The notes beneath the pieces are model-generated. The model saw only the letters and a list, made by a program, of their open reading frames with translations. It had not been told where the DNA came from and ran no database searches. Below are positions 47-19,781 of a stretch of DNA of 55,988 nucleotides, piece after piece. The translations under genes were made by a program, and so were the position numbers. The stretch covers positions 1 through 55,988 of the forward strand of contig CALVAR010000015.1 of assembly GCA_944325575.1 (NCBI GenBank). Direction: 5' to 3'. This stretch comes from Candidatus Gastranaerophilales bacterium. Its GTDB lineage: Bacteria > Cyanobacteriota > Vampirovibrionia > Gastranaerophilales > Gastranaerophilaceae. How positions within the stretch are numbered: the first letter of the stretch is position 1; the number at the start of each line of letters is the position of its first letter.

Positions 47-1036
47 ATGGGGAAAAAGACAGGTTTTGACATATTTAACGAAGGAACTTCCACCGACGGA
101 ATGGAATGGCTGGATGAAATAAAAAAAGCTATGGAAGAAATAAAAGACGATTCTGATGATTTGTTTAAACATCTTTTAAAAACGGCTAAAGAGTATAAAG
201 ATAAGATAGAAAAAGACAATCCTTATGCAGAGCTTTTGGAACAGTCAAAAAAAGAAAATGAAGAATTAACAGCCAATATCGGCTATTACAGAGATGCGAT
301 GGAAAAAAGGCTTGCCGTAGACAAATGGTATCGTGAAGAATTTGATAAATTAATGGAAAACAAACAGGGAATGTCTCCGGATGCACAGAATAAAGCAATG
401 ATGGATTTGGGCGAATTATACAATCAAAAATATGCTCAAGCTGATGAAGAAGTCTGGATGGAAAGAGGAGAAAAAGTTGCATCTATTATGGGCGGCAGCT
501 TTAGTGAATTGATAACCGAATATGAACATTTTGGAGACAAAATGAAAGATATTGCGACCTCACTGGCAGATTATATGATACAGGAATCATTAAGGGCAGT
601 CACACAGCAGATAATGAGCACACAAAAAGTACAATCAATGCTTAGCAGCATATTCTCGGCAGGTTCTTCAAAGGGAGGACTTTTTGGTGCAGCGACAAAC
701 TTTTTTAAAGGATTCGGGCGGAGACTCGGGCTGGCGACATTTCATGACGGTGGAATTGTTCCGGTTGGTGCAAATGCCGAATTGGCCGGCACACAGGAGC
801 AGCTTGCCCTGCTAAAAGGCGGAGAGAGAATATTAAGCCCCGGAGAAAACACCGAATACAACAGCAGAGAAAGAGACAGTTCTCCAGTAGTATTCAACAA
901 TTTTAATGTAAAAGCCTGGGATTCAAAAGATGTACGCAGATACTTGCTGGACAACCGGGAATTATTGAACCAGATTACATATCAGGGAATAAAGGATAAT
1001 TCCGCTCATTTAAGATTTATGGTACAGAATGCGTAA
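47..1036 (+). CDS. Tape-measure C-domain tail protein (copy 1)
   Basis: This 329-residue phage tail protein resembles the C-terminal part of lambda gpH-type tape measures. Residues 1-120 are charged and probably coiled coil. Residues 150-225 form an amphipathic to hydrophobic stretch (DYMIQESLRAVTQQIMS, then a Gly/Phe-rich segment). The last 98 residues contain GGIVP, LLKGGERILSP and FNVKAWDSKDVR. The same C-terminal domain, about two thirds identical by eye, ends the protein at 18317-19255, but the N-termini differ, so this is a second allele and not a simple copy. Start: ATG at 47 with AGAAAGGA eight bases upstream. It is followed after 21 bases by a gpM/gpL-type gene, the normal lambda order (H-M-L). 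At 329 residues it is far shorter than lambda gpH, so the tail would be short or the protein is only one part of the tape measure. Confidence 0.75.
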   Translation: MGKKTGFDIFNEGTSTDGMEWLDEIKKAMEEIKDDSDDLFKHLLKTAKEYKDKIEKDNPYAELLEQSKKENEELTANIGYYRDAMEKRLAVDKWYREEFDKLMENKQGMSPDAQNKAMMDLGELYNQKYAQADEEVWMERGEKVASIMGGSFSELITEYEHFGDKMKDIATSLADYMIQESLRAVTQQIMSTQKVQSMLSSIFSAGSSKGGLFGAATNFFKGFGRRLGLATFHDGGIVPVGANAELAGTQEQLALLKGGERILSPGENTEYNSRERDSSPVVFNNFNVKAWDSKDVRRYLLDNRELLNQITYQGIKDNSAHLRFMVQNA

Positions 1037-1057
1037 TAAAATTTGAAAGGAGTTAAG

Positions 1058-2392
1058 ATGACGACTTATCCGGTTTTTGATATACCATACAAAACAGCTT
1101 ATTCAACAGCGATAGAATTTAACACACAAATAAATAAAAAAATGAAGGGAAGGGAACAGCGCTATCCTGTCTGGACTTATCCAAAACGTACTTTTACACT
1201 TTCATTTGACAAAAACTTTAAAGGACGAAAAAAGCTCGAAGATTTCTTTATTGAAGCAGCAGGGCGGGCCGGCAAGTTTGAATTTGTCTGGGATAAAGCA
1301 AAAGGCGGAAACGGACAGACTTATCTTTGCACGTTTGATTCCGACATTTATAAGCAGAATATTGACGAGTTCGGATTTTCTGAATCTGAGTTAAAGCTTG
1401 TATGTATAGACGATTTTCCTGTTGATCCTGTGGAAAGTCTCGATTTTTACCACAGTGCAAAGAGTGAAACCACCATTGAATTTTATACAATTATTGACAA
1501 ATTTTTTACTGCAAGAAATGAAAGAAAATCCTACTGGAATAATCCAAAAAAGAGCTGGACTTTGACTTTTGACAAAAATGCAGGAACAAGAAAAAAACTG
1601 GAAGATTTTTTTATTGCCAAAAGAGGGAAATTCCGTTCCTTTGAGTGGAAATGGAAAAAAGAACTCGGAGGTGATGACAAAACTTACACTGTAAGGTTTG
1701 ATGAAGATACTTTGCAGTCAAATATTGATGAATACGGTTATGGAGAAATACAGGTAAAATTAAAAGAGGTTTTCCCCACCCCAAGCCCGTTTGATGATCT
1801 GGAAAAAGATGAAGTCATTCCGAGAAAACTTTTAAAAATACAACTGGAAGGCGGTTCTATTTATATTCTGGACAATGAAACAATGCAGTCATTGAATTAT
1901 AACGGCGAAGATTATCTTGGGGCACCTTTGAAACTTGATAAGATAAAAAAAGATGATAATTCCGGTGTTTCCAGATTGAATATAACACTTTCAAATGTAG
2001 GATTGTCAATTTCCGGTATTATAGGCCAGAGAGGTGATGTTATCACAAATGCTCCCGCTGTTTTGACACTGGTATTTTTGGATGTTGATACAAATACTCT
2101 GCTTCCCCAGTATACACAGGTCTTGTTTGCCGGAAGATGCAACAATTTAAAGCTCGGTTACGAAGACGCAACTATGGATATAGAGAGCTCTCTCGGCGGA
2201 TATGAAATACAAGCCCCGATTATGAAATATCGCACTACCTGTCAGGTAAGACGTTTCAAAGACTGCCGCTGCGGTTATACGGGAACCGAAACAAAGTGTG
2301 ATCGTACTTTTGCAAGATGCAAGGAACTCGGAAATGAAGAAAATTTCAGAGGATTTCCGCAAATGTATAATGAGCTTGTTATCAAGGTATAG
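1058..2392 (+). CDS. Tail-tip protein, tandem gpM-like domains fused to gpL-like domain
   Basis: The 444-residue protein has two repeated N-terminal domains, about residues 8-118 and 127-240. Each carries a W/Y-P-K-(K/R)-x-(F/W)-T-L-(S/T)-F-D-K-N block and then RKKLEDFFI, like the DUF2460/gpM tail-tip family. The C-terminal part, about 255-444, resembles lambda gpL/DUF2163 and ends in a cysteine cluster (Cys395, 403, 405, 414, 421) followed by NFRGFP. In lambda gpL this region binds a 4Fe-4S cluster, so an iron-sulfur site is likely here, though not shown. Start: ATG 1058 has GAAAGGAG nine bases upstream. An in-frame TTG at 1043 is less likely because it lies inside that ribosome binding site. 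Only one copy is present, next to tape-measure copy 1. Copy 2 has no such gene downstream. Confidence 0.7.
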   Translation: MTTYPVFDIPYKTAYSTAIEFNTQINKKMKGREQRYPVWTYPKRTFTLSFDKNFKGRKKLEDFFIEAAGRAGKFEFVWDKAKGGNGQTYLCTFDSDIYKQNIDEFGFSESELKLVCIDDFPVDPVESLDFYHSAKSETTIEFYTIIDKFFTARNERKSYWNNPKKSWTLTFDKNAGTRKKLEDFFIAKRGKFRSFEWKWKKELGGDDKTYTVRFDEDTLQSNIDEYGYGEIQVKLKEVFPTPSPFDDLEKDEVIPRKLLKIQLEGGSIYILDNETMQSLNYNGEDYLGAPLKLDKIKKDDNSGVSRLNITLSNVGLSISGIIGQRGDVITNAPAVLTLVFLDVDTNTLLPQYTQVLFAGRCNNLKLGYEDATMDIESSLGGYEIQAPIMKYRTTCQVRRFKDCRCGYTGTETKCDRTFARCKELGNEENFRGFPQMYNELVIKV

Positions 2393-2527: not shown

Positions 2528-2561
2528 ATTTTTTATAATTTATATGATTCATAATATTCTT

Positions 2562-3092
2562 ATGAAGAAAAGAATATTAACAATTTTATTTATAGTTTTT
2601 TATTTTTTTACCTTTGTCGGCTTTTTATGTTTTAACGGATATATTGGTATAAACGGCAAAGTATTTGACATTGAATCTTATAATATAAAAGATTTAAGAG
2701 AATCTGATAGCAAAGCAAAAGATATTTTATTTGAATATTTAAAAAAAGATGTCAAACAGTACGCCTATACTAAAGAAGACGGTAAAACCGGCTATTGGGA
2801 ATTGTATAAAGATGTTTTATGGGCGCTGACTAATGATATTGATAATGACGGCATAGAAGAAATAATCGGTTCATACGAAATAGCACCGTATTGCGGAACT
2901 GAATTTTGTGATTTTTTTATACTCAAAAAGCAGGGTGATAAGTATATAAATATTTATGAGAAACAGCAATATTCCGGTATCCACAGGATTGATATTGTAA
3001 ATAATATAAAAAAACAAGGACACAAAAACTTGAACTTGTATTTTTGGCATAGATACACCAAAAAAGAGTATGTGCAAATTTTAGAGTTTTAA
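2562..3092 (+). CDS. Exported or membrane-anchored DxNxDG protein, paralogue 1
   Basis: This 176-residue protein is of unknown function. An N-terminal hydrophobic segment (about 5-25) is an uncleaved anchor or signal sequence. The rest should be outside the cytoplasmic membrane. Residues 92-97 read DIDNDG, followed by IEEIIG and then Y-C-G-x3-C-x-F-x-I-L. This is an EF-hand or FG-GAP-like calcium-binding loop. The same arrangement is in the protein at 3969-4541, and a looser version is at 8848-9381. The gene lies between virion genes of the prophage and is very AT-rich, so I infer moron cargo. Start: ATG 2562 gives the cleanest signal sequence; an in-frame ATG at 2544 is the alternative. Neither has a good ribosome binding site. 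Confidence 0.65.
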   Translation: MKKRILTILFIVFYFFTFVGFLCFNGYIGINGKVFDIESYNIKDLRESDSKAKDILFEYLKKDVKQYAYTKEDGKTGYWELYKDVLWALTNDIDNDGIEEIIGSYEIAPYCGTEFCDFFILKKQGDKYINIYEKQQYSGIHRIDIVNNIKKQGHKNLNLYFWHRYTKKEYVQILEF

Positions 3093-3968: not shown

Positions 3969-4541
3969 ATGAAAAGATTAAGTATTAATATAACCATTCT
4001 ATTAATTGTAACAGCTTGTTTTTTATACTTTGCAAATAAAGAGAAAGCTATTTTTGCTTATCAGTATGTAGATGATTATTCTGAAGTAATTAAATTTAAA
4101 AATGCAAAATATTTGGCAGAATATGAATTATTTGGTACTCAAAAGAAGAATACTTCTATTGCAAATATATTTTGGGCTTATTTAAAACAAGATATAACCG
4201 GTTATAAAAATAAAAAATGCGATGATGATTGTCTGTTGCATAAATATGGTTTAGAGAAAAATATTTGGGTAGGTGATTTTGATTTAAATCAGGACGGAAT
4301 ACCGGAAATCATTGGAGCAAACGATTCCGTTTACTGCGGTTCTTTAATGTATTGTTTTCGTATTTTACAAAAGAATAAATTTACAAAAAATTATAAGAAT
4401 ATTAGTTATATACTTTTTAACAAAGAATTTTACAAAATAAGAGTTTTAAAAAATAAGACAAATAATTTTTACGATTTATATCTTTTTAGCATCCGCCAAA
4501 ATGGTGATAGGATTTTACGTTATAACAAAATTCAGAATTAG
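3969..4541 (+). CDS. Exported DxNxDG protein, paralogue 2
   Basis: The 190-residue protein is of unknown function. The N-terminal hydrophobic stretch ends in I-V-T-A-C17, a possible lipobox, so this may be a lipoprotein. The motif FDLNQDGIPEIIG is followed by VYCGSLMYC, matching the spacing of the Ca-binding-like loop and cysteine pair in the protein at 2562-3092. The gene follows the metallophosphoesterase by 74 bases, and the pair repeats the order of the partly deleted unit upstream. It is very AT-rich. No function is assigned. Envelope-located prophage cargo is the best reading. Confidence 0.65.
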   Translation: MKRLSINITILLIVTACFLYFANKEKAIFAYQYVDDYSEVIKFKNAKYLAEYELFGTQKKNTSIANIFWAYLKQDITGYKNKKCDDDCLLHKYGLEKNIWVGDFDLNQDGIPEIIGANDSVYCGSLMYCFRILQKNKFTKNYKNISYILFNKEFYKIRVLKNKTNNFYDLYLFSIRQNGDRILRYNKIQN

Positions 4542-4568
4542 TTTTTATATTTGAGAAAGGAAAGTTTT

Positions 4569-5669
4569 ATGAGGACAAAAACGCTTGAAGATTTTTTTGC
4601 CGAATTAGGCTACAGAGAGTCCAGCGGAAAATACGATAATGATAATAATCCATATTATTATGGGATGTATCAACTTGGAAAACTTGCATTAACAGAAGCA
4701 GGTTACTATGATATAAAAAAAGACAAATTCACCGGTAAAAATGGTATAAACTCAAAAAAGGATTTTTTAAATGATCCGGCTGCACAAGAAGATGCTGTAA
4801 GATGTTTTGAACGCTCACAATGGAAACAACTTAAAAACATGTGCAATAAATATTATTACAATCAAAAAATTAATGGTATACAATTGACAGATTCAGGTTT
4901 ATTAGCCGGTGCACATTTAGTTGGTCCAAGTGAGGTTTGCAAATATTTAAAAAGTAAAGGCAAATATATACCTCGTGATGGTAATGGAACTAGCGTGGAA
5001 GAGTATATAAAAAATTTTGCAGGTTATGATATAAGTGAAATTACGGATAGCTCAACAAATAAAAAATTTTATAAGCAATTTTCTCTTGGTACAAAAGATA
5101 ATTTAAACACTGAATCCAATATTAAATTTTCCTATAAAAAGACCGACACTGTAAAAAATCCAGTCAAAAAAAGTCTCTTAAGTGAAATATTGGACAGTAA
5201 CAATATAAAATTAAATCAATATGAAAAAATCCTTTACGAATCAATGTTAAAAAGCGCTGCAAATAAAGGAAAAGAGAATAAAACAGAAACAAAGATAACC
5301 GGAAAAACATTGAAAAACATGCTGGATACCCGGTACCAAAAACTTAAAGACTACACAAATAAAATATACATGGAATCAGAAGCAATAAATAAAAGATTTA
5401 CGGGGAATATACCCAAAGACTACAAAAATCCGCACCTTGAAAACGACAGGATATTTACAAAAGAAGAAATAGACAAAATGCCACGTTCAGAATATCAAAA
5501 GAATGAAAAAGCGATAAGGTATCAAAGAAAGACAATAGGAATACCGACAAAATCGCAGGCGGAGAAAACAGCCTCAAAGAAGGGAAGCGGAATGGTGCAT
5601 GTTTCAGGGTATACGACATCAGACGGCCGCAAGGTAGGGGATTATTTCAGGTCTTATCCCAGAGAATAG
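4569..5669 (+). CDS. Lysozyme-like phage protein with C-terminal VHVSGYT segment
   Basis: The 366-residue protein starts with a lysozyme/transglycosylase-like region: YRESSGKYD at 15-23 with Glu17 as the likely catalytic acid, then YYYGMYQLGKLAL, then AGAHLVG. These resemble the E-S-x-G, G-x-Y-Q-x-G and A-x-H motifs of soluble lysozyme-fold domains. The middle (about 190-300) is Lys/Asn-rich and probably coiled. The C-terminus carries the short motif VHVSGYTTSDGRKVGDYFRSY, also seen at the ends of other phage and bacterial proteins. Start: ATG 4569 has AGAAAGGA upstream; a TTG at 4551 precedes that site and is unlikely. A virion-associated cell-wall hydrolase is plausible, but injected effector or moron roles cannot be ruled out. 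Confidence 0.55.
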   Translation: MRTKTLEDFFAELGYRESSGKYDNDNNPYYYGMYQLGKLALTEAGYYDIKKDKFTGKNGINSKKDFLNDPAAQEDAVRCFERSQWKQLKNMCNKYYYNQKINGIQLTDSGLLAGAHLVGPSEVCKYLKSKGKYIPRDGNGTSVEEYIKNFAGYDISEITDSSTNKKFYKQFSLGTKDNLNTESNIKFSYKKTDTVKNPVKKSLLSEILDSNNIKLNQYEKILYESMLKSAANKGKENKTETKITGKTLKNMLDTRYQKLKDYTNKIYMESEAINKRFTGNIPKDYKNPHLENDRIFTKEEIDKMPRSEYQKNEKAIRYQRKTIGIPTKSQAEKTASKKGSGMVHVSGYTTSDGRKVGDYFRSYPRE

Positions 5670-5737
5670 CATTTTTTCTTGTAAAGCGTAAAGTGTTCTA
5701 TGTGATAAATGATTTGGTTACGAGGGTTTAGTGTAGC

Positions 5738-6262
5738 GATAATATTTATTATGTAATTTTAGTTAATCAGCAATAAATCAAATATTTAAAATACCTGATG
5801 CTCCATTCAAACAGAATATAATTTGAACCTGTCTCGGCAACTCGGGCTGTAAAAATTGCTAAAGATACAAATACCTTTGTGTTTGTTATAATTTCCCAGC
5901 CCTCGGACAGTACCTCGTTTGTAGTTGTTCAAATAATATTCTGTAATTCATTTCGCAAAAGGTATTTTAAATATTCAATTTATTGCTAAAATCTTTTCTC
6001 AAAAAATTGATAAATAAATAGGGAGCAGATATTTTATTTTAGAGTGACTTAAAATCCTACCCGCAAGGGCGGATTTTTCGGAACGAAGAAGTAAATATCC
6101 TCTACTTATTCTGCATAATTAAACTGAGTCTTGGATTATTGGCGTTCACAAGGTTTTGTATTCCATTTCGAAATTTTATTCTAAAATTTCTTCATTCCAA
6201 CAACCTTGCTCACATGGGCAGCTTTGTGCCCGCACAAAATCCGCTACATAATAAATATTATC
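5738..6262. mobile_element. MITE-like element 1 (chimeric), 525 bp
   Basis: It is bounded by perfect 18-bp terminal inverted repeats, GATAATATTTATTATGTA at 5738-5755 and its complement at 6245-6262. It fills most of the gap between the lysozyme-like gene and the portal and has no credible ORF. The left two thirds (5756-6085) is the reverse complement of element 3 (19291-19710). The right third (6090-6262) is the reverse complement of the left part of element 4 (26116-26290). Inside are nested inverted repeats that could fold into long hairpins. No clear target duplication is visible. Because it is a family of similar-sized, non-coding elements with shared ends, I call it MITE-like. A structured phage RNA or recombination site is the alternative. 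Confidence 0.65.
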
Positions 6263-8420: not shown

Positions 8421-8942
8421 ATGATTAGAATTAAAAATTTTTTATGCATAATGTTGTTCTCGTGTCTTTGTTTTTGCCAAAGTGCGTTTGCCGAACAGGC
8501 TTTTGTCCACCCGATAGATGCACAGGAAAGTGCATGTAAAACCGGAGCAAAAACTCTTGATGAATGGACAAGATGCACTCTAAAAGCAGCAAATGCCTGG
8601 ACAGGAGAAGTTGATAAATATTACTCGCTGCTTTATAAAAAATTTCCGGATAATGCAAAACAAACACTCTATGATGATCAAAAATACTGGAATATGTATA
8701 AAAATAAAGAATACGGCGTTATAGATACTTTAGAAGATAAGGACAATGAAACAAAAGAGCGGGTAATGTTTCGTGCAGACCGGAAAAGAGATTTAATAAA
8801 AAGCCGCGCACAAACTTTGAGAATGTATTATGTCCAAACTTTCCCCGATGATGAACAAGAAAAAATTGAAATCAATAATAACCAAAGCGGTTTCCAGCTT
8901 GATCCTGTTTTGCAGCGCGGGCTTCGCTGGCTTGGCTTTTGA
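8421..8942 (+). CDS. LprI-like exported protein (DUF1311 family, putative lysozyme inhibitor)
   Basis: The 173-residue protein has a clear signal peptide, with a hydrophobic core at about 8-22 and cleavage after AFA at 24. The mature part has the LprI/DUF1311 pattern: a Cys, a spaced second Cys (ACKTGAKTLDEWTRC), then a helix with YYSLLYKK...L-x3-Q-x-x-W-x-x-Y. Members of this family include a mycobacterial lysozyme inhibitor; others have no known role. In a prophage such a protein could protect the envelope from lysozyme, from the host animal or from other phages. The last 95 bases overlap the next gene in another frame, and the C-terminal 30 residues may be late extension and not part of the fold. 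Confidence 0.6.
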   Translation: MIRIKNFLCIMLFSCLCFCQSAFAEQAFVHPIDAQESACKTGAKTLDEWTRCTLKAANAWTGEVDKYYSLLYKKFPDNAKQTLYDDQKYWNMYKNKEYGVIDTLEDKDNETKERVMFRADRKRDLIKSRAQTLRMYYVQTFPDDEQEKIEINNNQSGFQLDPVLQRGLRWLGF

Positions 8943-9381
8943 TATACCGAGAGCCTGCTTTGATTTAGAAAATACGGAAAGTTCAAGCCCGGCTTCGGAA
9001 ATTTTATGGAGCTGGCTGCTCAGACAAATCAGACTTTCTGAGGCTAATGCAGCAATTCACAATATATATAAAAAAGACTGCGCCGCTGTATTTTTCGATT
9101 TAAACTCGGACGGCGAAGATGAGGTTTTGGGGACACATTATTCTTCCGTAAAAAACGGTAACGGAGGCTGGCTTTTGTATATTTTACAAAAAAACAGCAA
9201 GGGCATCTATCAGGAAATTACGGGAGAAGAAATTTATTTTGACGTCAGACATCCGGTTTGTATTCTTTTAAAGAAAACAGATGGTTATCGGAACTTTCAG
9301 GTCTTTAATAAAAATCTGGATGATGATATTACATACTCATACAGACAGGATAAAAAATTATATTTCAAAAAAAATAAATAG
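8848..9381 (+). CDS. Exported DxNxDG protein, paralogue 3
   Basis: The 177-residue protein is of unknown function. It opens with MMNKKKLKSIITKA and then a hydrophobic core, SLILFCSAGFAGLA, a typical signal peptide. The motif FFDLNSDGEDEVLG matches the DxNxDGxxEI(I/L)G loop of the proteins at 2562-3092 and 3969-4541. This copy lacks the following CG-x3-C pair. Its start lies inside the 3' end of the LprI-like gene, so the whole signal peptide is encoded in an overlapping frame, implying coupled translation. ATG 8848 or 8851 fits the signal peptide best; an upstream ATG at 8830 would add six residues. Confidence 0.6.
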   Translation: MMNKKKLKSIITKAVSSLILFCSAGFAGLAFDIPRACFDLENTESSSPASEILWSWLLRQIRLSEANAAIHNIYKKDCAAVFFDLNSDGEDEVLGTHYSSVKNGNGGWLLYILQKNSKGIYQEITGEEIYFDVRHPVCILLKKTDGYRNFQVFNKNLDDDITYSYRQDKKLYFKKNK

Positions 9382-9491
9382 TTCTGTTAAACGTAAAATA
9401 CAATAAATTTTTAGAATATAACTTGTGGATAATTAATAAATAGACTCTGCAGTTGATATAAATCAATTGCATCAATCCAGCTATTTTTATG

Positions 9492-9514
9492 CGGCATTTT
9501 TAATGCCGTTTTTC
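9492..9514 (+). terminator. Intrinsic terminator before scaffold gene
   Basis: Arms CGGCATT and AATGCCG around TTT are followed by TTTTTCTTTT. It lies 79 bases upstream of the scaffold start. Confidence 0.7.
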
Positions 9515-9592
9515 TTTTATCTATTAACTTACACAGATTGGACCGTACAGCAGCAGCTGTATTTTGTCCGCAATTTACAGAAAGGAGTTCCT

Positions 9593-10180
9593 ATGTCAGG
9601 TACACAGGACCTAAATTTGGCTGCGGGTGAAGAGATTCTAAAGCAGTCAGACCAATCAGGAATTGGTCAGCACAATGAAGCGGCTCAGGAAGCCGTATCA
9701 GAAGAAAGCGAAAATGAGGAAAAAGTGCTCACTCCATCACAAAAAATGGATGCTCTTATTCGCGGAACTTCTGCTGGGTATATGAAAAGAGAGCTTGAAA
9801 GACTAAGAAAGGAAGCCGCAAAATATCGCAATTCTTCCAGAATTGAAAATCAGGCAAAATTGGAACTGCAAGCTAAAGCCGAAGAAATTTCAAAAGAGCT
9901 TGAAGCTCTAAAAGCCGAGCACAGAAATCTGTCTATTATCCAAAAATTGGATAAAGCAGGCTGTATCAAAAGCGAACTTGTTGCCAAAGATATTCCGGCG
10001 GATTTATCTTCTTCAGATGATTTGGATAAATTTATTCAGAATTATAAAGAAGAAAACAAGTTTCTTTTCAAAACCCCGAAACAAAATGCCGGCGGTACTT
10101 TCAAAACCTCCGGCAGGAAAAACCTTACTCCTTCACAACAGATGGATGCTTACATCCGTGCTGCACTCGGCAGGTCATAA
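9593..10180 (+). CDS. Capsid scaffolding protein
   Basis: The 195-residue acidic, Glu/Lys-rich protein has a central coiled coil (about 60-115). It lies directly before the major capsid gene, the usual place for a scaffold that directs procapsid assembly. A short motif occurs twice: LTPSQKMDALIR at about 44-55 and LTPSQQMDAYIR near the C-terminus. It may be a duplicated capsid-binding helix. Start: ATG 9593 follows ACAGAAAGGAG, the same strong ribosome binding site used by other late genes; an upstream in-frame start at 9467 would run through the terminator. Confidence 0.75.
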   Translation: MSGTQDLNLAAGEEILKQSDQSGIGQHNEAAQEAVSEESENEEKVLTPSQKMDALIRGTSAGYMKRELERLRKEAAKYRNSSRIENQAKLELQAKAEEISKELEALKAEHRNLSIIQKLDKAGCIKSELVAKDIPADLSSSDDLDKFIQNYKEENKFLFKTPKQNAGGTFKTSGRKNLTPSQQMDAYIRAALGRS

Positions 10181-10232: not shown

Positions 10233-11192
10233 ATGACAACAGATGCCAAAATTATTACACGTACAAACGCAGAGGCATTAATCCCCGTAGAAACTTCTAA
10301 TGAAATTATAAAAGAAGTTCCGAAAGCTTCTGCTGCGCTACAGCTTTTTAAACAGCTGCCAAATATGAGCGCAAAACAAAAAACTCTTCCGATTGCGTCA
10401 ACATTACCTACAGCTTACTTTTTAAACGGTGATACCGATATGAAAAAGACTACAAATGCAGAATGGGATAAATTGACACTTACGGCAGAAGAGATTGCAG
10501 TAATTGTGCCTATTCCGGAAGCTGTTTTTGAAGATTCGCAGTATTCTATGTGGGATGAAATCAAACCTCAGATTGTTGAAGCTTTTGGTGTTGCAATTGA
10601 TGATGCTGTATTTTTCGGCGTAAACAAACCGGCGTCCTATCCTGATGCTATTGTTACTGCTGCAATATCAAAGAAAAATACTGTTGAAGTAGGTACAAAT
10701 GAAGATATTGCCGGAGATATTATCGGTGAAAACGGTGTTATGTCAAAAGTAGAAGCTGCAGGCTATAAAGTTACAGGATTTTATGCAGACAGCACTCTTG
10801 AAGCAAAATTCAGAAACTTAAGAGATAAAAACAATCAGCTTTTATATACACCGGGCTTAACTTCCGAAATGCCGGTAAGTCTTGTAGGCCGCCCTATGAT
10901 GTATGACGAAACAGGTATTTTTGATACAACAAAAGCCCTTTTAATTGCTGGTGATTTCACTAAGGCAGTATATTCTATCAGACAGGATATAACTTACAAA
11001 GTGCTTGATCAGGCTATTATCCAAAATACAGACGGAACTATAGCCTACAACCTTGCACAGCAGGATATGGTTGCACTACGCTGCGTTATGAGACTCGGTG
11101 TACAAATTGCAAGCCCTGTTACAAGAAAAGGCGGTTCAACAGGTTATCCGTTTGCAATATTAACTCCTCAAGCAGATTCCGTAGAAAGCTAG
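10233..11192 (+). CDS. Major capsid protein, HK97 fold
   Basis: The 319-residue protein has features of the HK97-type family: a central IAVIVPIPEAVFEDSQY segment (P-domain strand followed by the spine-helix acidic motif), an A-domain with FGVAIDDAVFFGVNKP, then LRDKNNQLLY, and a C-terminal VALRCVMRLGVQI strand. No protease gene is adjacent, so maturation would be protease-free or use a protein outside this window. GGAAAGGA precedes ATG 10233, 52 bases after the scaffold. A bulged terminator follows at once. Confidence 0.85.
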   Translation: MTTDAKIITRTNAEALIPVETSNEIIKEVPKASAALQLFKQLPNMSAKQKTLPIASTLPTAYFLNGDTDMKKTTNAEWDKLTLTAEEIAVIVPIPEAVFEDSQYSMWDEIKPQIVEAFGVAIDDAVFFGVNKPASYPDAIVTAAISKKNTVEVGTNEDIAGDIIGENGVMSKVEAAGYKVTGFYADSTLEAKFRNLRDKNNQLLYTPGLTSEMPVSLVGRPMMYDETGIFDTTKALLIAGDFTKAVYSIRQDITYKVLDQAIIQNTDGTIAYNLAQQDMVALRCVMRLGVQIASPVTRKGGSTGYPFAILTPQADSVES

Positions 11193-13999: not shown

Positions 14000-14407
14000 A
14001 TGAAAGATACAAAGAAAATAAGCAAAGCAAAATTAAAAAAAATTGAGCAGGAATGTCTTGCTCTTGTAATTGAGAACAGCATTGTTTTTATGGATGAAAT
14101 ATTTATTTATACCGAAATAGCTCCGTCGTCTTTTTATAATGCAGGTTTACAGGATTCTGTTCTTTTGAAAGATGCAATTGATATTAACCGTGCAAAGTTA
14201 AAAAGAGATCTGAGGCTAAAGTGGTTTGACAGTACAAATGCTACGCTTAATGCTGCATTATACAGGCTTGTTTGTACAGAAGACGAAAAGCGTGCGCTTT
14301 CATCTTCCGCTGCATCAAAAAACCAGCAGAACAGTGATATTTGTACACAGGAAGAATATTTAAAAAGTTTGAAAGAGATGGGAGAAAGCATAGAAAATGC
14401 CGATTGA
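14000..14407 (+). CDS. Terminase small subunit
   Basis: The 135-residue protein has an N-terminal helical region with a helix-turn-helix-like stretch (FMDEIFIYTEIAPSSFYNAG) and a charged, Ser/Gln-rich C-terminus. It overlaps the large terminase start by 11 bases. TerS recognises packaging sites and recruits TerL. Start: ATG 14000 with GGGAG ten bases upstream; an in-frame start at 13922 would be inside the terminator stem. Position after the tail tube gene is unusual, as terminase genes normally precede the portal. Confidence 0.7.
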   Translation: MKDTKKISKAKLKKIEQECLALVIENSIVFMDEIFIYTEIAPSSFYNAGLQDSVLLKDAIDINRAKLKRDLRLKWFDSTNATLNAALYRLVCTEDEKRALSSSAASKNQQNSDICTQEEYLKSLKEMGESIENAD

Positions 14408-15692
14408 TTGGACAAAATCTAAATACAGTAAAAAGCACAGGTTATTTTTGAGTAAAAAGCCTGCAGATATGGCGTTTTTTACATTATGTGACGGTGCGGT
14501 ACGCTCTGCAAAGACATTATCCATAATCTATAAAATTCCACAGATGTTTGATTTTGTCGGTAATGAATATTTAAAAGTTTTTTCCGGATATTCTAAGAAT
14601 ACCGTACGAAATAATGTACTTGTAGAGCTTTTGCCTTACTTAAAGAACTACCACGGTGCAAATGTAAAGTATAATTCCGCAAGCGGAGAGCTGGATATAA
14701 AACTCTGGGGGAAACTGTATAATTGTCTTGTTGTCGGCGGGGGAAAGTCTGACAGTGATTCTAATATTCAAGGCGCAACGTGGGACTTCTGGTATGCAAA
14801 CGAACTGCCAAAGCATCATTACGGCTTTTACAACATGGCTCTGTCCCGTCTTACTCCGGAAAATGCCAGAGCAATTGCAGACAGCAATCCGGAAAGTTCT
14901 AATCACTGGTTGTATAGAGAAAGGATAAAGCCTTATCTTGACGGTGATGAAAATGTAAGAAGCATTTTTGATTACTGGCATTTTACAATGGAAGACAATG
15001 CTAATTTGTCAAAGGCTTTTATAAACAATCAGAAAAAATTGTATCAAGGTGTTTTTGAAGCACGTAAAATCAAGGGACTCTGGGTTGTAGCGCAAGGGCT
15101 TGTATACGATACATTTAACCCGGATAAACATACCTGCTCTCACAAACAAATTTTGGAAAAAATAAACAACAATGAATTTTTTGAATATTTTCTCGGGTTA
15201 GACTGGGGCTGGATGCACCCTTTATGCTGCGGTCTGTATGGCGTGACAAGAGCAGGCAAATATTACAAAATAGATGAACTATACGGTTCCAAAATCGGCG
15301 AGGACAAAGTAATAAACTGGATTTTGTCCAAACAGAAAGAATACGGAAGATATTTCCGGTTTATAAACTGTGACAACGCCCGTCCCGAACAGAATCACAA
15401 ACTGCGTGAAGCACTGCAGGGGATTATTGTTCAGGAAAAGAAGCCAAAAGTAGTAGACAGTATCGGTATAGTCAGATCAATTATTAATTATGACAGGTTA
15501 ATTGTAAACAAAGACAGATGTAAAAATACGCTGCGAGAGTTTGGCCTGTACAGGTATCCGAATGAAGATGAGAGAGAGACAAGGCTTATTGATATGGATA
15601 CCCCGTTAAAAGAAAATGATGATACTATGGACGAGACACGCTATGCACTGGATTTTTACGAAACAAATTATGCCTACTTGTTTAAAAGATAA
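14397..15692 (+). CDS. Terminase large subunit
   Basis: The 431-residue packaging ATPase/nuclease is of the PBSX/phage terminase type. A variant Walker A, GAVRSAKT, lies at 33-40; the Walker B acid is in WYANE at 132-136. Nuclease-domain acids are visible at Asp269 (FLGLDWGW), Asp326 (INCDNARPE) and Asp412 (MDETRYALDF). All key residues are present, so it should be functional. Its ATG overlaps the end of the TerS gene. Two terminators follow before the tail chaperone gene. Confidence 0.9.
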   Translation: MPIDWTKSKYSKKHRLFLSKKPADMAFFTLCDGAVRSAKTLSIIYKIPQMFDFVGNEYLKVFSGYSKNTVRNNVLVELLPYLKNYHGANVKYNSASGELDIKLWGKLYNCLVVGGGKSDSDSNIQGATWDFWYANELPKHHYGFYNMALSRLTPENARAIADSNPESSNHWLYRERIKPYLDGDENVRSIFDYWHFTMEDNANLSKAFINNQKKLYQGVFEARKIKGLWVVAQGLVYDTFNPDKHTCSHKQILEKINNNEFFEYFLGLDWGWMHPLCCGLYGVTRAGKYYKIDELYGSKIGEDKVINWILSKQKEYGRYFRFINCDNARPEQNHKLREALQGIIVQEKKPKVVDSIGIVRSIINYDRLIVNKDRCKNTLREFGLYRYPNEDERETRLIDMDTPLKENDDTMDETRYALDFYETNYAYLFKR

Positions 15693-15771: not shown

Positions 15772-15803
15772 CAAAAAACAGGCATTTTTGTGTCTGTTTT
15801 TTG
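15772..15803. terminator. Terminator after TerL
   Basis: An AAAAAACAGGCA arm pairs with TGTCTGTTTTTT, including a G-T pair, with a short T-rich loop. The A and T runs could serve both strands. Confidence 0.55.
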
Positions 15804-15849
15804 TTTAGCAGTACCCAAAATATTCTGGCAGATTATATCTCTTTTCAGT

Positions 15850-15878
15850 GTCCCTGCTTTTTGGCAGGGACTTTTTTT
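15850..15878 (+). terminator. Strong terminator before tail chaperone gene
   Basis: Eight-base arms GTCCCTGC and GCAGGGAC around a T-rich loop are followed by seven T. The ribosome binding site of the chaperone gene begins 56 bases later. Confidence 0.85.
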
Positions 15879-15947
15879 AAATTTTTAATTTTAAAAATTA
15901 TAGATGTGCTTTGTGCACTGTTTTGTTATTTACAGAAAGGACAAATT

Positions 15948-16328
15948 ATGATTAAAGACATTTTGAACAAGCCTTACAAAATGGAGATTGAAGGCAAAAA
16001 TTACACGCTCGATTATGACAACAAAGCTTATGCAGCACTTGAACAGTTAACGGGCAAGGGTATTTTTCGTATTTATGATGACTTTGTAGTAAAAAACAAT
16101 TTAAAATACAGCGATTGTATTGAAGTTGCGTGCTGCGCAATGATGAAGAACCATACAGAAGGCGAGATTGCAAATGCAAGAATCGCATTGAATGATAAAA
16201 AGTTTTTGTTTTTACAAAATATTGCGCCGATAACACTTGCTTTTGTAGAGCCGTTAACACCGCCGGAAATTTTACAATCAAAAAAAGGTGTCAATAAAAA
16301 ATCCGATTTAAAAAAAAAGAAGAAATAG
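15948..16328 (+). CDS. Tail assembly chaperone, gpG-like
   Basis: The 126-residue protein lies between TerL and tape-measure copy 2. It begins with a short beta region (YKMEIEGKNYTLDYDNKAYAALEQLTG), continues helical, and ends SDLKKKKK. This is the gpG position: the short product binds the tape measure before tail polymerisation. ACAGAAAGGA precedes ATG 15948; an upstream in-frame ATG at 15801 lies before a terminator and is rejected. The 3' end contains A AAA AAG in the zero frame, nine bases before the stop, and a second ORF follows in the -1 frame (see 16319-16561). Confidence 0.8.
   Translation: MIKDILNKPYKMEIEGKNYTLDYDNKAYAALEQLTGKGIFRIYDDFVVKNNLKYSDCIEVACCAMMKNHTEGEIANARIALNDKKFLFLQNIAPITLAFVEPLTPPEILQSKKGVNKKSDLKKKKK
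16313..16319 (+). promoter_or_regulatory. Programmed -1 ribosomal frameshift site A_AAA_AAG
   Basis: The heptamer A AAA AAG has zero-frame codons AAA (16314) and AAG (16317). It is the same slippery sequence as Escherichia coli dnaX. It sits within a run TTTAAAAAAAAAGAAG. A shift of -1 enters an open frame that continues 80 codons. Tail chaperone genes of siphoviruses commonly use this signal, so I consider it functional. Confidence 0.8.
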
Positions 16329-16561: not shown

Positions 16562-17054
16562 TTTGTTTAATCAGATAAAATATGTAAATGTGCACTGGGT
16601 ATAGGGGCGTACTGCCTCTTGCCCCGTGCTTAATAAAGAACGTCATTCTTGTATATATTACGTACTTTGATGCCGGATTTTATATATTAATAATATTTGT
16701 GAATACTATGTATTAGACTTTGGTCTATCGAAAATATGAGTATGTATATTGTTATAATGATAGTTATGTGTTCAGAATCTTACCAATCGGATGTGTAAAG
16801 CCAAAACCGCCAAGATTCTAAGCTCGCTTTATTCCGCATGATGACGGGTTGAGTATTAGATTCTTCGGTCACTTTGTTCCCTCAGAATGACAGTTTGTTG
16901 GTTAGTCTCAGGATGATAAATCACCGTCATCCTGAGCGTAAGCGAAGAATCTTTTATTATTAAATTCTTGCTAGAGATACATACGAGGCACCAAACGTAC
17001 ATCTTACTATGCTCTATGGTACAAGCTAAGCCGCCTCAGACAAAATCAAATATA
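16562..17054. other. Intergenic region without a gene
   Basis: About 490 bases with no credible ORF. It holds two inverted copies of a CATCCTGAG...GAAGAATCT repeat (16858-16952) and, at 17035-17045, CCGCCTCAGAC, which recurs inverted at the left edge of the repeat region near 35,690. It separates the tail chaperone from the tape-measure cassette region. In other phages the tape-measure gene follows the chaperone directly. Confidence 0.5.
16858..16952. repeat. Inverted pair of GAAGAATCT/CAGAATGAC-type repeats
   Basis: AGATTCTTCGGTCACTTTG...CTCAGAATGACAG (16858-16893) faces CGTCATCCTGAGCG...GCGAAGAATCT (16925-16952). Repeats of this pattern are dispersed in intergenic DNA of several bacterial phyla. 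Here they form a hairpin-capable pair. Confidence 0.6.
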
Positions 17055-17102
17055 AAAAAGCATTGGAAGAAGCGAAAAAGCAGATGAGCGAAACTAACAA
17101 AA
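17055..17102 (+). pseudogene. Fragment 1 of tape-measure gene 5' end
   Basis: This matches codons 17 to about 32 of tape-measure copy 2 at 18365-18410, with the shared run continuing ACTAACAAAA. It has no start codon or ribosome binding site. It abuts the 3' end of the reverse-strand gene at 17106-17624. Confidence 0.8.
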
Positions 17103-17105
17103 TGA

Positions 17106-17624
17106 TTACTCTCGCGTCATAATCAATTCGCCCTGTTCGTTATAACAATTTTTGCCTATCCAGTGGGCCACCAATTTTTTATTTTTATCAAAAATGAATT
17201 GCTCACTTTTTGAAACATCTAGAGTAACTGAATCAAAATTACCAGATGAATCATATGTAATACGTTTGCTTGGAAAACCTTTACCTTGAGTTATAGAAAT
17301 ACCAATTAATTCCCCATTTTGATTATAATGATATGAGTTTTTTATATTCGACTTATAGCATATCGTATAATCTCCATCAGAATATGATGTAATATATCTA
17401 TCTTTATAATTCTGAGTTTTTTTATTTATAAGTATAAGATTTTTATTATAATTTTTATCATTTGCAAATTTTTTGTATTTAGCAATATTAATTTGTAATT
17501 TAATATTATCAAATGACTCAACTCTTGCAGATTGTACTGTATAATTTATCCCACCTTTTAATGTATATCCTGTTGAATATAAAAAAGTAAGCAAAAAAAC
17601 AATTATAAAAAAATATTTAGACAT
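17106..17624 (-). CDS. Exported protein, reverse-strand cassette paralogue A
   Basis: The 172-residue protein is of unknown function. A signal peptide (about 1-20, FFIIVFLLTFLYSTGYT) precedes TLKGGINYTVQSAR. The body has repeated strand patterns such as YHYNQNGELIGI and ITYDSSGNFDSV, like YD- or MORN-type short repeats. The end reads KKLVAHWIGKNCYNEQGELIMTRE. It is a clear paralogue of 17758-18279. Both lie opposite to the virion genes and converge on copies of the tape-measure 5' end. It is AT-rich cargo. A surface or envelope role is inferred only from the signal peptide. Confidence 0.65.
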   Translation of the reverse strand: MSKYFFIIVFLLTFLYSTGYTLKGGINYTVQSARVESFDNIKLQINIAKYKKFANDKNYNKNLILINKKTQNYKDRYITSYSDGDYTICYKSNIKNSYHYNQNGELIGISITQGKGFPSKRITYDSSGNFDSVTLDVSKSEQFIFDKNKKLVAHWIGKNCYNEQGELIMTRE

Positions 17625-17666
17625 AAATTAACACTAACATAACTTTTTACAGAAAGGAATATAAAA

Positions 17667-17777
17667 ATGACAATATTAAATCAAAATTATAGGAATGACC
17701 AAAGCCAATTTGAAAAAGCATTGGAAGAAGCGAAAAAGCAGATGAGCGAAATAAGATTTAGTACTCACGTGTCATAA
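17667..17777 (+). pseudogene. Fragment 2 of tape-measure 5' end, 36-codon ORF
   Basis: It has its own ACAGAAAGGA site and ATG. Codons 11-28 (DQSQFEKALEEAKKQMSE) come from 54 bases, 17697-17750, identical to 18347-18400 in tape-measure copy 2. The ORF then runs into the 3' end of the reverse gene at 17758 and stops at 17777. It could still be translated as a short peptide. Confidence 0.8.
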
Positions 17778-18279
17778 TCAACTCGCCCTGTTCGTTATAA
17801 CAATTTTTGCCTATCCAATGAGCAAGCAGTTTTTTGTTTTCATCAAAGACAAACTGTTCATCCTTTTTTACACTAATTGCAATTGAGCTTAAATTTCCAT
17901 AAATATCATAGGCAACTGATTTTTTTGGATATTTATTATTTATATAAAAGACTATTATCTCAAGTTTTCCGCTTTTATTATAAATAAAATAACGTGTAGT
18001 ATTTTCTTTAAACAATAGAGAATATTTGCCGTCAGAAAATATCTGAATTTCTCTATCACGAAATTTCAACTTATTTTTTATTATTGCATTTTTATTTTGT
18101 ATGGAATTTTTATCAAAGAAAAAAGTCTTATATTCTTGTATATTAATGTGCGGTTTTATTCCTTCAAAAGCTAATACACGTGCATTATCAACAGTATATG
18201 TAATTCCTGTTTTTAGGGTAAAAGCCCCAGCTATAAAACATATTAAGCATAAAAGTAGTATTTTGGATAATTTATTCAT
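17758..18279 (-). CDS. Exported protein, reverse-strand cassette paralogue B
   Basis: The 173-residue protein is of unknown function. It has signal peptide MNKLSKILLLCLICFIAGA and then FTLKTGITYTVDNAR, matching paralogue A throughout, most strongly at the C-terminus (KKLLAHWIGKNCYNEQGELIMTREY). The Met at 18279 is chosen because it begins the signal peptide; the frame is open to 18441 but that part lies antisense to the start of tape-measure copy 2. It diverges from that gene with 37 bases between the starts, so both promoters must lie within or across each other's leaders. Confidence 0.65.
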   Translation of the reverse strand: MNKLSKILLLCLICFIAGAFTLKTGITYTVDNARVLAFEGIKPHINIQEYKTFFFDKNSIQNKNAIIKNKLKFRDREIQIFSDGKYSLLFKENTTRYFIYNKSGKLEIIVFYINNKYPKKSVAYDIYGNLSSIAISVKKDEQFVFDENKKLLAHWIGKNCYNEQGELIMTREY

Positions 18280-18316
18280 TTTTAATAGTATAACATAAGA
18301 AATAGAAAGGATCTTT

Positions 18317-19255
18317 ATGAAAAATATAACTTTTAATAAAGATAAAGACCAAAGCCAATTTGAAAAAGCATTGGAAGAAGCGAAAAAGCAGATGAGCGAA
18401 ACTAACAAAAAGTTTGCAGATGCGATGAAAGAGTTAAACAAAATATGGAAAGATCAAAAGCAGGAGTACAAGACTCTTGTAAATGCTGTTAAAACTAACA
18501 AAATTGATTTTAGAGAACTTCTGGATGACGGTTATACTGAAGAAAAAGAACATATTGCAAACAAATACACTCTTCTGCGAAAAGGTGTTGAGTCTGACAA
18601 ATCTTTGACGGATGAACAAAAAAGCTATTTTCAAAACAGTTTTGATTATTTGGAAGATGAAGAAACTCAAAAAGCATATGATAACAGTTTTCTCGGCAAA
18701 ACGGGCAAAAAAGTTTCTTCAGAATTTGCATCGGGTTTGCAGGACATGATTAGAGGGTACAAAGATTTTTCCGATGTTATGGAAAACATGACCACAAGCA
18801 TCACCGATTATATGATAAAACAATTTACGGACAAACTTATGCAGAATATTTTTTCCGAAAACACAATGAATCTGTTTTCCGGCTTGTTTGGAAGTTTGTT
18901 TAACTGGGGCGGCGGAGCCGCAAAAAGCGCTCTCGGTTTTATAGGGTCGTTATTCACAAAACACCACTCCGGCGGAATTGTTCCCGACGGGGCAAATTAT
19001 TCTCTGCCCGGTACAGAAGAACAGCTTGCTCTTTTAAAAGGAGGAGAGAGGGTTTTGAGTCCTGCCGAAAATGTTAATTATGAAAAACAAAGAGAGTCAT
19101 CTCCCGTCATTGTAAACTCGTTTAATGTAAAAGCTTGGGATTCCAAAGATGTGAGGCAATATTTACTTGAAAACAGAGATCTCTTGAATCAAATTACTTA
19201 TCAAGGAATAAAGAATAACTATTCAAATTTGAGACATATTGTACAAAATGCATAG
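18317..19255 (+). CDS. Tape-measure C-domain tail protein (copy 2)
   Basis: The 312-residue protein has a charged, coiled-coil N-terminal half (about 8-110), then DYMIKQFTDKLMQNIF and a Gly/Phe-rich hydrophobic stretch. The C-terminal domain (GGIVPDGANYSLPG, LLKGGERVLSP, FNVKAWDSKDVR) is shared with 47-1036. Its position after the gpG/gpT chaperone and before gpK- and gpJ-like genes is the expected tape-measure position. Start: ATG 18317 with AGAAAGGA nine bases upstream. Its codons 11-28 are repeated upstream at 17697-17750, and in part at 17055-17102. No gpM/gpL genes follow; the only such gene follows copy 1. Confidence 0.8.
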   Translation: MKNITFNKDKDQSQFEKALEEAKKQMSETNKKFADAMKELNKIWKDQKQEYKTLVNAVKTNKIDFRELLDDGYTEEKEHIANKYTLLRKGVESDKSLTDEQKSYFQNSFDYLEDEETQKAYDNSFLGKTGKKVSSEFASGLQDMIRGYKDFSDVMENMTTSITDYMIKQFTDKLMQNIFSENTMNLFSGLFGSLFNWGGGAAKSALGFIGSLFTKHHSGGIVPDGANYSLPGTEEQLALLKGGERVLSPAENVNYEKQRESSPVIVNSFNVKAWDSKDVRQYLLENRDLLNQITYQGIKNNYSNLRHIVQNA

Positions 19256-19290
19256 GAGTATTATCTCTGCCGATGCTTCTATAGCGGGAT

Positions 19291-19710
19291 GATAATATGT
19301 ATTATGTAAAACCATATATTAAGCATTCGAGAGCAGATATTTCATTTTTTCGTTCCGAAAAATCCGCCCTTGCGGGTAGGATTTTAAGTCACTCTAAAAT
19401 AAAATATCTGCTCCCTATTTATTTATCAATTTTTTGAGAAAAGATTTTAGCAATAAATCAAATATTTAAAATACCTTTTGCGAAATGAATTACAGAATAT
19501 TATTTGAACAACTACAAACGAGGTAATGTCCGAGGCACGGGGAATTATTTGTATCACAAACTATCTTTGTTCTTTAGCAATTTTTACGTGCCGAGTTGCC
19601 GAGACGGGTTCAAATTATATTCTGTTTGAATGAAGCATCAGGTATTTTAAATATTTGAGTTATTGCTGATTAACTAAAATTTATTAATAAATTACATAAT
19701 ACATATTATC
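19291..19710. mobile_element. MITE-like element 3, 420 bp
   Basis: Terminal inverted repeats GATAATATGTATTATGTA (19291-19308) and complement (19693-19710). These differ from elements 1 and 2 by a T to G change in the loop of a small hairpin, and both ends carry the change. The interior in reverse complement is close to the left two thirds of element 1. It contains three nested inverted repeats, including ATATCTGCTC against GAGCAGATAT. The gap 19256-19827 holds only this element, a degenerate hairpin after the tape measure and a terminator. Confidence 0.65.
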
Positions 19711-19781
19711 AATACACAAACTAAAATTTACAATAAAATCCCTAATTAACTATCAATAACAAACAGATATATGCAAAAACT

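Follow-up and report, generated by a model that had tools for sequence, protein, structure and literature searches.

The window analyzed here is contig C15 in its entirety, 55,988 nucleotides from G000, a Gastranaerophilales genome of 2.02 Mb. Between a tail-assembly-chaperone (TAC)-like open reading frame (15801..16328, plus strand; PF11836 at E 0.0025, below the cut-off of that family, and in the same position across the genus) and NlpC/P60 and J-like tail-tip genes lies a plus-strand gene (18317..19255) of which the 312-residue product is, judging by weak PHROGs matches (best 1.8e-5) and gene position, a short tape-measure-like protein (TMP). Codons 1-10 of this gene (18317..18346, plus strand), MKNITFNKDK, form a variable tag and are followed by a conserved anchor (18347..18410, plus strand), the sequence of which is repeated between the units of an upstream array. 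Read base by base, the window contains copies of the TMP start at 17055, 17697, and 18347, the positions given in a preliminary description of this DNA; the second and third are identical, as claimed there, over 55 nucleotides (17697-17751 = 18347-18401) rather than 54, and the first matches the real gene exactly over 48 nucleotides (17055-17102 = 18363-18410). The second copy belongs to an orphan TMP start (17667..17777, plus strand) comprising a ribosome-binding site (RBS), ATG, the tag (M)TILNQNYRN, and the anchor, and its 36-codon reading frame runs into the 3′ end of the next gene. RBS and ATG are also kept in the third copy and are missing from the first (17055..17102, plus strand), an anchor-only remnant of the oldest TMP start of the array, which has lost its tag as well and is abutted by an interspersed repeat. 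On the opposite strand lie two paralogous genes for exported proteins (EXPs), both with a signal peptide and 51% identical in amino acid sequence: unit 2 (17106..17624, minus strand; 172 residues) and the TMP-proximal unit 1 (17758..18279, minus strand; 173 residues). Their stop codons fall 3 and 6 nucleotides past the TMP-start repeats, in agreement with the earlier limit of 10 bases or less, and the pattern of start fragment plus reverse gene, twice, followed by the full gene is present. A predicted extended -10 promoter of EXP unit 1, TGTTATACT on the minus strand (18287..18295), sits a few bases ahead of the start codon and is leaderless; both its motif and its distance are common among EXPs. 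The full gene is the second TMP gene of its cluster. The EXP of TMP gene 1 (47..1036, plus strand) is found in forward orientation at the right end of contig C22 (locus L110), which terminates with this EXP and the start, MGKKTGFDIF, of TMP gene 1.

The array is flanked by repeats: an interspersed one on the left (~16700-17054), with the stretch at 17000-17060, left of the first copy, matching repeats elsewhere in the genome, and a hairpin-forming one (TGATAATATGTATTATGTAA and its inverted copy) at 19290-19711. Similar repeats adjoin the left array ends in L077, L082, and L083, and such flanking repeats may wear down the oldest unit of an array. A chance or low-complexity origin of the repeated TMP starts is ruled out by exact repeats of 48-55 nucleotides in the register of the gene start and by the same layout in other genomes. 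An assembly artefact is unlikely, since many genomes assembled independently of one another, and one IMG/VR contig, show the layout too.

The cluster that carries the array spans window positions 1-26045 and the right end of C22. Its gene order begins with the TAC-like gene, EXP array, TMP gene 1, a DUF2460/BR0599-like tail protein (1043..2392, plus strand; 72-85% amino acid identity in the genus), portal, exported small genes, a scaffold-like gene, and the major capsid protein (MCP; 10233..11192, plus strand; PF05065), and continues with connector genes, tail tube, a TerS-like gene, and the terminase large subunit (TerL; 14397..15692, plus strand). In many genomes TerL is followed by a second TAC-like gene, EXP array, and TMP, and the cluster ends with NlpC/P60, J-like, fibre, and GH108 endolysin genes. 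A gene for an LprI-type lysozyme inhibitor (PF07007) occupies 8421-8942 in the head module, a position conserved in the genus, and signal-peptide genes that have a DIDNDGIEEIIG-like stretch in common stand among the tail and head genes at 2544-3092, 3969-4541, and 8830-9381. MCP was found in 22 of the 23 genomes of the genus, mostly once and at 84-99% amino acid identity except for diverged copies at 65-69%; TerL, likewise mostly single, was found in 22 of 23 at 84-96%, except for one copy at 66%. In genomes from outside the genus, the capsid turns up sporadically, at ~66%. Median dN/dS values of 0.056 (MCP) and 0.035 (TerL) indicate strong purifying selection, and the distances of cluster genes correlate with those of a host gene (Spearman 0.37-0.50), a result reached in none of 2000 permutations. 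The maf gene adjoins the cluster, on one or the other side, in five genomes, and no integrase was seen among the scanned cluster open reading frames. In some species pairs, however, MCP and TerL have a more recent common origin than the host gene (for MCP in G016/G019, dS 0.11 vs. 0.97), so the cluster itself moves or recombines.

The head–tail and packaging genes expected of a complete gene transfer agent (GTA) cluster are present, namely portal, MCP, TerL, connector, tail tube, TMP, tail tip, and endolysin. Like GTAs of the RcGTA kind (PMC9765227), the cluster is a conserved head–tail cluster that has no detectable integrase, a short TMP gene, and DUF2460, NlpC/P60, and J-like tail-tip genes, and it is mostly single-copy and near-universal in its clade. 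In contrast to these GTAs, it is known from its genes, carries arrays of exported genes, often has two TMP genes, and recombines between species. These features suit an ordinary prophage less well than a GTA-like or domesticated element, which makes the label of prophage first applied to the cluster doubtful. The literature searched held no earlier report of a GTA-like cluster in this gut Gastranaerophilales genus.

The units seen in the window are found throughout nearly all genomes of the genus, beside TMP starts, and the number of EXP genes per array varies from one to eight between its species, both as the preliminary description had anticipated. G010 carries eight EXP genes with a TMP fragment between each neighbouring pair, G013 eight, G017 six, and the other genomes one to four. 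Unit order is always EXP followed by TMP start, whichever strand the EXP occupies; we refer to units in which the EXP is reverse relative to the TMP, as in the window, as type A and to forward ones as type B. Both orientations occur within L086 and L094, and an EXP stands beside the full TMP, in one orientation or the other, in all 26 loci with enough upstream sequence. The TMP fragments nearly always begin at the true TMP start and give way to the next EXP at a TMP residue between about 21 and 67, and the RBS and start codon are retained in 45 of 52 orphan TMP starts. The first 6-15 TMP residues, the tag, vary between units (MTILNQNYRN, MKNITFNKDK, MAKTIHKEI, and MDIGERIQKI are examples) and precede a conserved anchor such as DQSQFEKALEEAKKQMSETNK. 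In the arrays, every displaced piece of the TMP gene is paired with a small gene and the pieces share a conserved boundary, and the EXP-TMP module is found in up to three places of the cluster and in two orientations. The third site, between tail tube and TerS, is seen in L201 (IMG/VR; 4539-6049). L204, a more distant contig, has a single EXP-like gene (9478-10074) ahead of DUF2460, with no TMP adjoining it. At 3498-5440 of L105 (contig C37 of G002), orphan TMP starts continue in frame into the next exported gene, and read-through there could possibly yield fusions of tag and anchor with a non-matching EXP.

Comparison with G010 suggests how such arrays change. Window unit 1 is the counterpart of G010 unit 5 (88% amino acid identity; dN/dS 0.14) and window unit 2 that of G010 unit 7 (85%; dN/dS 0.16), and nothing in the window between them matches G010 unit 6; the G010 unit bearing the ortholog of window EXP unit 1 has the tag MKNIAFNKDK. 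This comparison shows, at the level of sequence, that whole units are gained or lost. The dS of the EXPs common to G000 and G010 (0.45 and 0.61) is far below that of an rfaE-like host gene (1.40) and of TerL (1.05), and thus units moved after the species split. G013 carries units identical at the amino acid level, which are read as tandem duplications. Within arrays, the TMP-distal fifth of the EXP gene is conserved and homogenised, silent positions included, in both orientations, and the TMP-proximal end is variable in both. In reverse EXPs the distal fifth stands at.74 vs..54-.59 for the rest, and the successive fifths of forward EXPs at.93,.93,.74,.59, and.61; the distal-end pattern holds in 70 of 73 reverse and 27 of 27 forward EXP pairs. 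The homogenised end is the C terminus in type A and the N terminus in type B. Selection on protein function should conserve the same terminus in both types; that the conserved end flips with orientation argues instead for recombination at unit ends. Recent core exchange is visible as sharp drops in identity: L097 and L098 are 99% identical in DNA across the TMP body vs. 47-57% in codons 1-20 and 47% in the spacer, with the EXP at 66% in its proximal and 95% in its distal quarter, and L091 and L092, two loci in one genome, show the same drop, from 97% in the TMP body to ~45%, and differ in the tag, the spacer, and the proximal half of the EXP. The homogenised ends, together with the exchange of units from one array to another, indicate that the conserved ends serve as sites of homologous recombination. 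That these are arrays shaped by recombination, taken as a claim by itself, is one we hold with high confidence.

Tag and EXP alleles mostly travel together across species. For EXP pairs from different loci that are at least 80% identical, tag similarity is 0.85 in reverse (type A) and 0.71 in forward (type B) units, vs. 0.03-0.05 for the remaining between-locus pairs, and the observed similarity was matched in 2 of 1000 within-locus shuffles for type A and in none of 1000 for type B. Exceptions are found in G013, where EXPs 92-94% identical have different tags, and in G004, where the same is true of EXPs 92% identical; since tag and EXP sometimes separate, the case for strict cognate recognition is weakened. 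Median dN/dS among EXPs is 0.21 (70 pairs, orphans included), which indicates that EXPs, orphans too, are under purifying selection. Pooled pN/pS for the first 20 TMP codons is 0.22, most of the pairs compared including an orphan. Of 79 EXPs, 61 (36 of the 42 forward genes and 25 of the 37 reverse ones) have an extended -10 element (TG-n-TATAAT or TATACT) ahead of the start codon, with constant spacing. Because this box is so placed and leaves no space for a leader, EXPs are predicted to be independent, leaderless transcription units. With intact open reading frames, low dN/dS, and a promoter of their own, the partner genes of orphan TMP starts are thus likely to remain functional. In reverse units the EXP promoter abuts the TMP RBS; as a sole reason for keeping TMP starts, the promoter fits these units and fails in forward ones, where it lies on the other side.

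The EXP is probably an exported, beta-rich protein of ~150 residues that resides in the periplasm. A hydrophobic N-terminal signal peptide is read in EXP sequences, and an AF2 model of EXP unit 1 (pLDDT 92, pTM 0.79) comprises an N-terminal signal helix, three short helices, and a beta meander; no lipobox was seen. Both sequence and model predict export to the envelope, as would be expected of an exclusion protein, and the EXP is encoded by the element, within its tail cluster, with what is predicted to be a promoter of its own, as would likewise be expected. Fold searches gave no match at E 0.001 or better (the best were 8.8e-3, to OspA, in PDB and 3.0e-3 in BFVD), and VIA-align Z values did not exceed 6.6, which is within the range stated for common arrangements. 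No entry in Pfam, NCBIfam, PHROGs, PADLOC, or PDB names a function for the EXP, and the first four contain no known exclusion family related to it. Among PDB sequences, the EXP profile matched best to a superantigen-like beta region and to Rhs proteins in their YD-repeat stretches, a likeness attributed to repeats alone. Scans of a viral collection with P0002, P0003, and EXP alignment A1 produced no match, nor did isolated-phage records; a capsid query of the viral collection reached relatives, among them L201 (capsid 91%), which has EXP and TMP. Two further EXP paralogs of G000 lie on the chromosome at a distance from any TMP; their neighbours, ribosomal protein L20 and a polysaccharide flippase, offered no clear functional clue.

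Several known systems resemble parts of this arrangement. The gp15 moron of phage HK97 is independently transcribed, and we know of no TMP-start copies associated with it. Works cited in PMC13190303 (for gp15, Cumby et al. 2012 and 2015) describe it as a superinfection-exclusion moron and assign the HK97 TMP a role in genome injection. A moron linked to genome injection and the TMP is also what the EXP would be; gp15, however, is a single inner-membrane protein, whereas EXPs form arrays. Ltp of phage TP-J34 excludes phages by binding the TMP of incoming phages, at its C-terminal region (PMC3952083). Like the EXP, Ltp is a phage-derived exported protein encoded beside a tail cluster, and it acts on incoming TMP (PMC3952083); it is, however, a single-gene surface lipoprotein directed at the TMP C terminus, while the EXP has no visible lipobox and is arrayed with TMP starts. 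The closest likeness in genetic layout is to the orphan arrays of CDI/Rhs systems (PMC3150448), in which a full gene is likewise accompanied by displaced fragments, every one of them linked to a small gene; the fragments are recognisable by a conserved stretch, exchange occurs via a conserved boundary, the linked genes are intact, and the same module is found in different strains and array positions. In the EXP arrays, in contrast, the N terminus of a tail protein (start codon, 6-15 variable residues, and anchor) is displaced rather than a toxic C terminus, the partner is exported, and the orphans lie upstream of the full TMP. Moreover, many CDI orphan fragments have no start signals (PMC3150448), whereas the TMP orphan starts keep theirs. 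No toxin domain or secretion gene was found, the variable part being 6-15 TMP residues. By analogy, the EXP/TMP array would work like a CDI/Rhs orphan array and does not belong to those families.

We propose, with moderate confidence in mechanism and function taken jointly, that these loci are recombining arrays of exclusion (immunity-type) EXPs matched to TMP alleles. In this model, each pair consists of one EXP allele and a matching allele of the first 6-15 TMP residues, and sequence comparison shows units bounded by the conserved TMP anchor on one side and the homogenised EXP end on the other. The same comparison shows gain, loss, and swapping of whole units and of variable cores, in line with homologous recombination between unit ends; a unit swap would give the particle a new tag and the matching EXP together. 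Older pairs would be pushed upstream as orphans, their TMP part becoming a dead stub and their EXP, with a promoter of its own, staying functional. On meeting the ejected TMP in the envelope, the EXP would keep out the DNA of particles with matching tags, and the array would serve as a store of such specificities. Because orphan EXPs are retained, have promoters of their own, and pair with TMP alleles, and because the known exported phage proteins that act on or with the TMP are exclusion proteins, we regard this as the best single reading. Several points count against it. A dead stub would need neither the RBS and ATG that orphan starts retain nor their low pN/pS, although part of this may predate orphaning and the region overlaps the EXP promoter in reverse units. 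The variable part of the TMP is its N terminus, whereas Ltp targets the C terminus. Finally, if the element is a true GTA, it gains no obvious benefit from shutting out the particles of its kin.

A reading that we consider rather unlikely is that the array is a compatibility locus for DNA-carrying particles: the TMP-start peptide would be a donor label and the EXP a recipient factor that reads it and admits DNA from particles with a matching tag. Tag/EXP pairs would then be a self-recognition locus, and arrays would store further specificities, spread between species by recombination, with orphans widening the accepted donor range. Linked, diversifying pairs suit such loci, and with separate promoters, EXP could be made in recipients that produce no particles, TMP being made from the late operon. 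The near-universal, single-copy state of the cluster in the genus, the strong purifying selection on MCP and TerL, its place beside maf in five genomes, and the lack of a detectable integrase are also consistent with it, but the evidence that the cluster moves or recombines, with MCP and TerL younger than the host gene in some pairs, argues against it.

A by-product of duplication is a further explanation that we rate as rather improbable. Here the EXP would be an envelope-acting moron unrelated to the TMP, a hot spot of duplication and recombination would have made the arrays, and the TMP pieces would be passengers. Tandem duplication of units in G013, other exported genes in the same cluster, such as the LprI-like lysozyme inhibitor, the chromosomal EXP paralogs away from any TMP, and the EXP-like gene of L204 with no TMP beside it all fit this explanation. 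However, the EXP remains beside the TMP in 26 of 26 loci despite up to three places and two orientations, and tag alleles track EXP alleles.

The origin first suggested for the window, repeated insertion of a mobile cassette at one site in the TMP gene with the start rebuilt each time, now seems very unlikely. Tandem units with a gene start in each speak for it, as does the mixed array of L086, where a reverse unit follows a forward unit and carries a fragment 98% identical to the real gene. Against this, each unit already holds the gene start with its own variable N-terminal codons, junctions fall at several points (TMP residue ~21 to 67) rather than at a single site, the EXP occurs in both orientations, no recombinase was seen in the unit, and tags vary while unit ends are homogenised. 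Insertion or an illegitimate junction is possible as the very first event. A silent-cassette store, in which unexpressed orphans serve solely as a source of TMP N termini, as in pilin variation, fits the orphan starts with RBS, ATG, and reading frame kept (45 of 52; pooled pN/pS 0.22) but is hardly credible given that the orphan EXPs have predicted promoters and are under purifying selection along the gene, needless for a silent store.

Should the exclusion reading be correct, a tail-particle system would carry, beside the gene for its target, a heritable and growing repertoire of specificities that control entry, and the role of the TMP in DNA entry, which is little understood, would be tied to allele-specific recognition. 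Concrete tag/EXP pairs are available for testing. The GTA-like cluster in which they reside is present in nearly all sampled species of one gut Gastranaerophilales genus.
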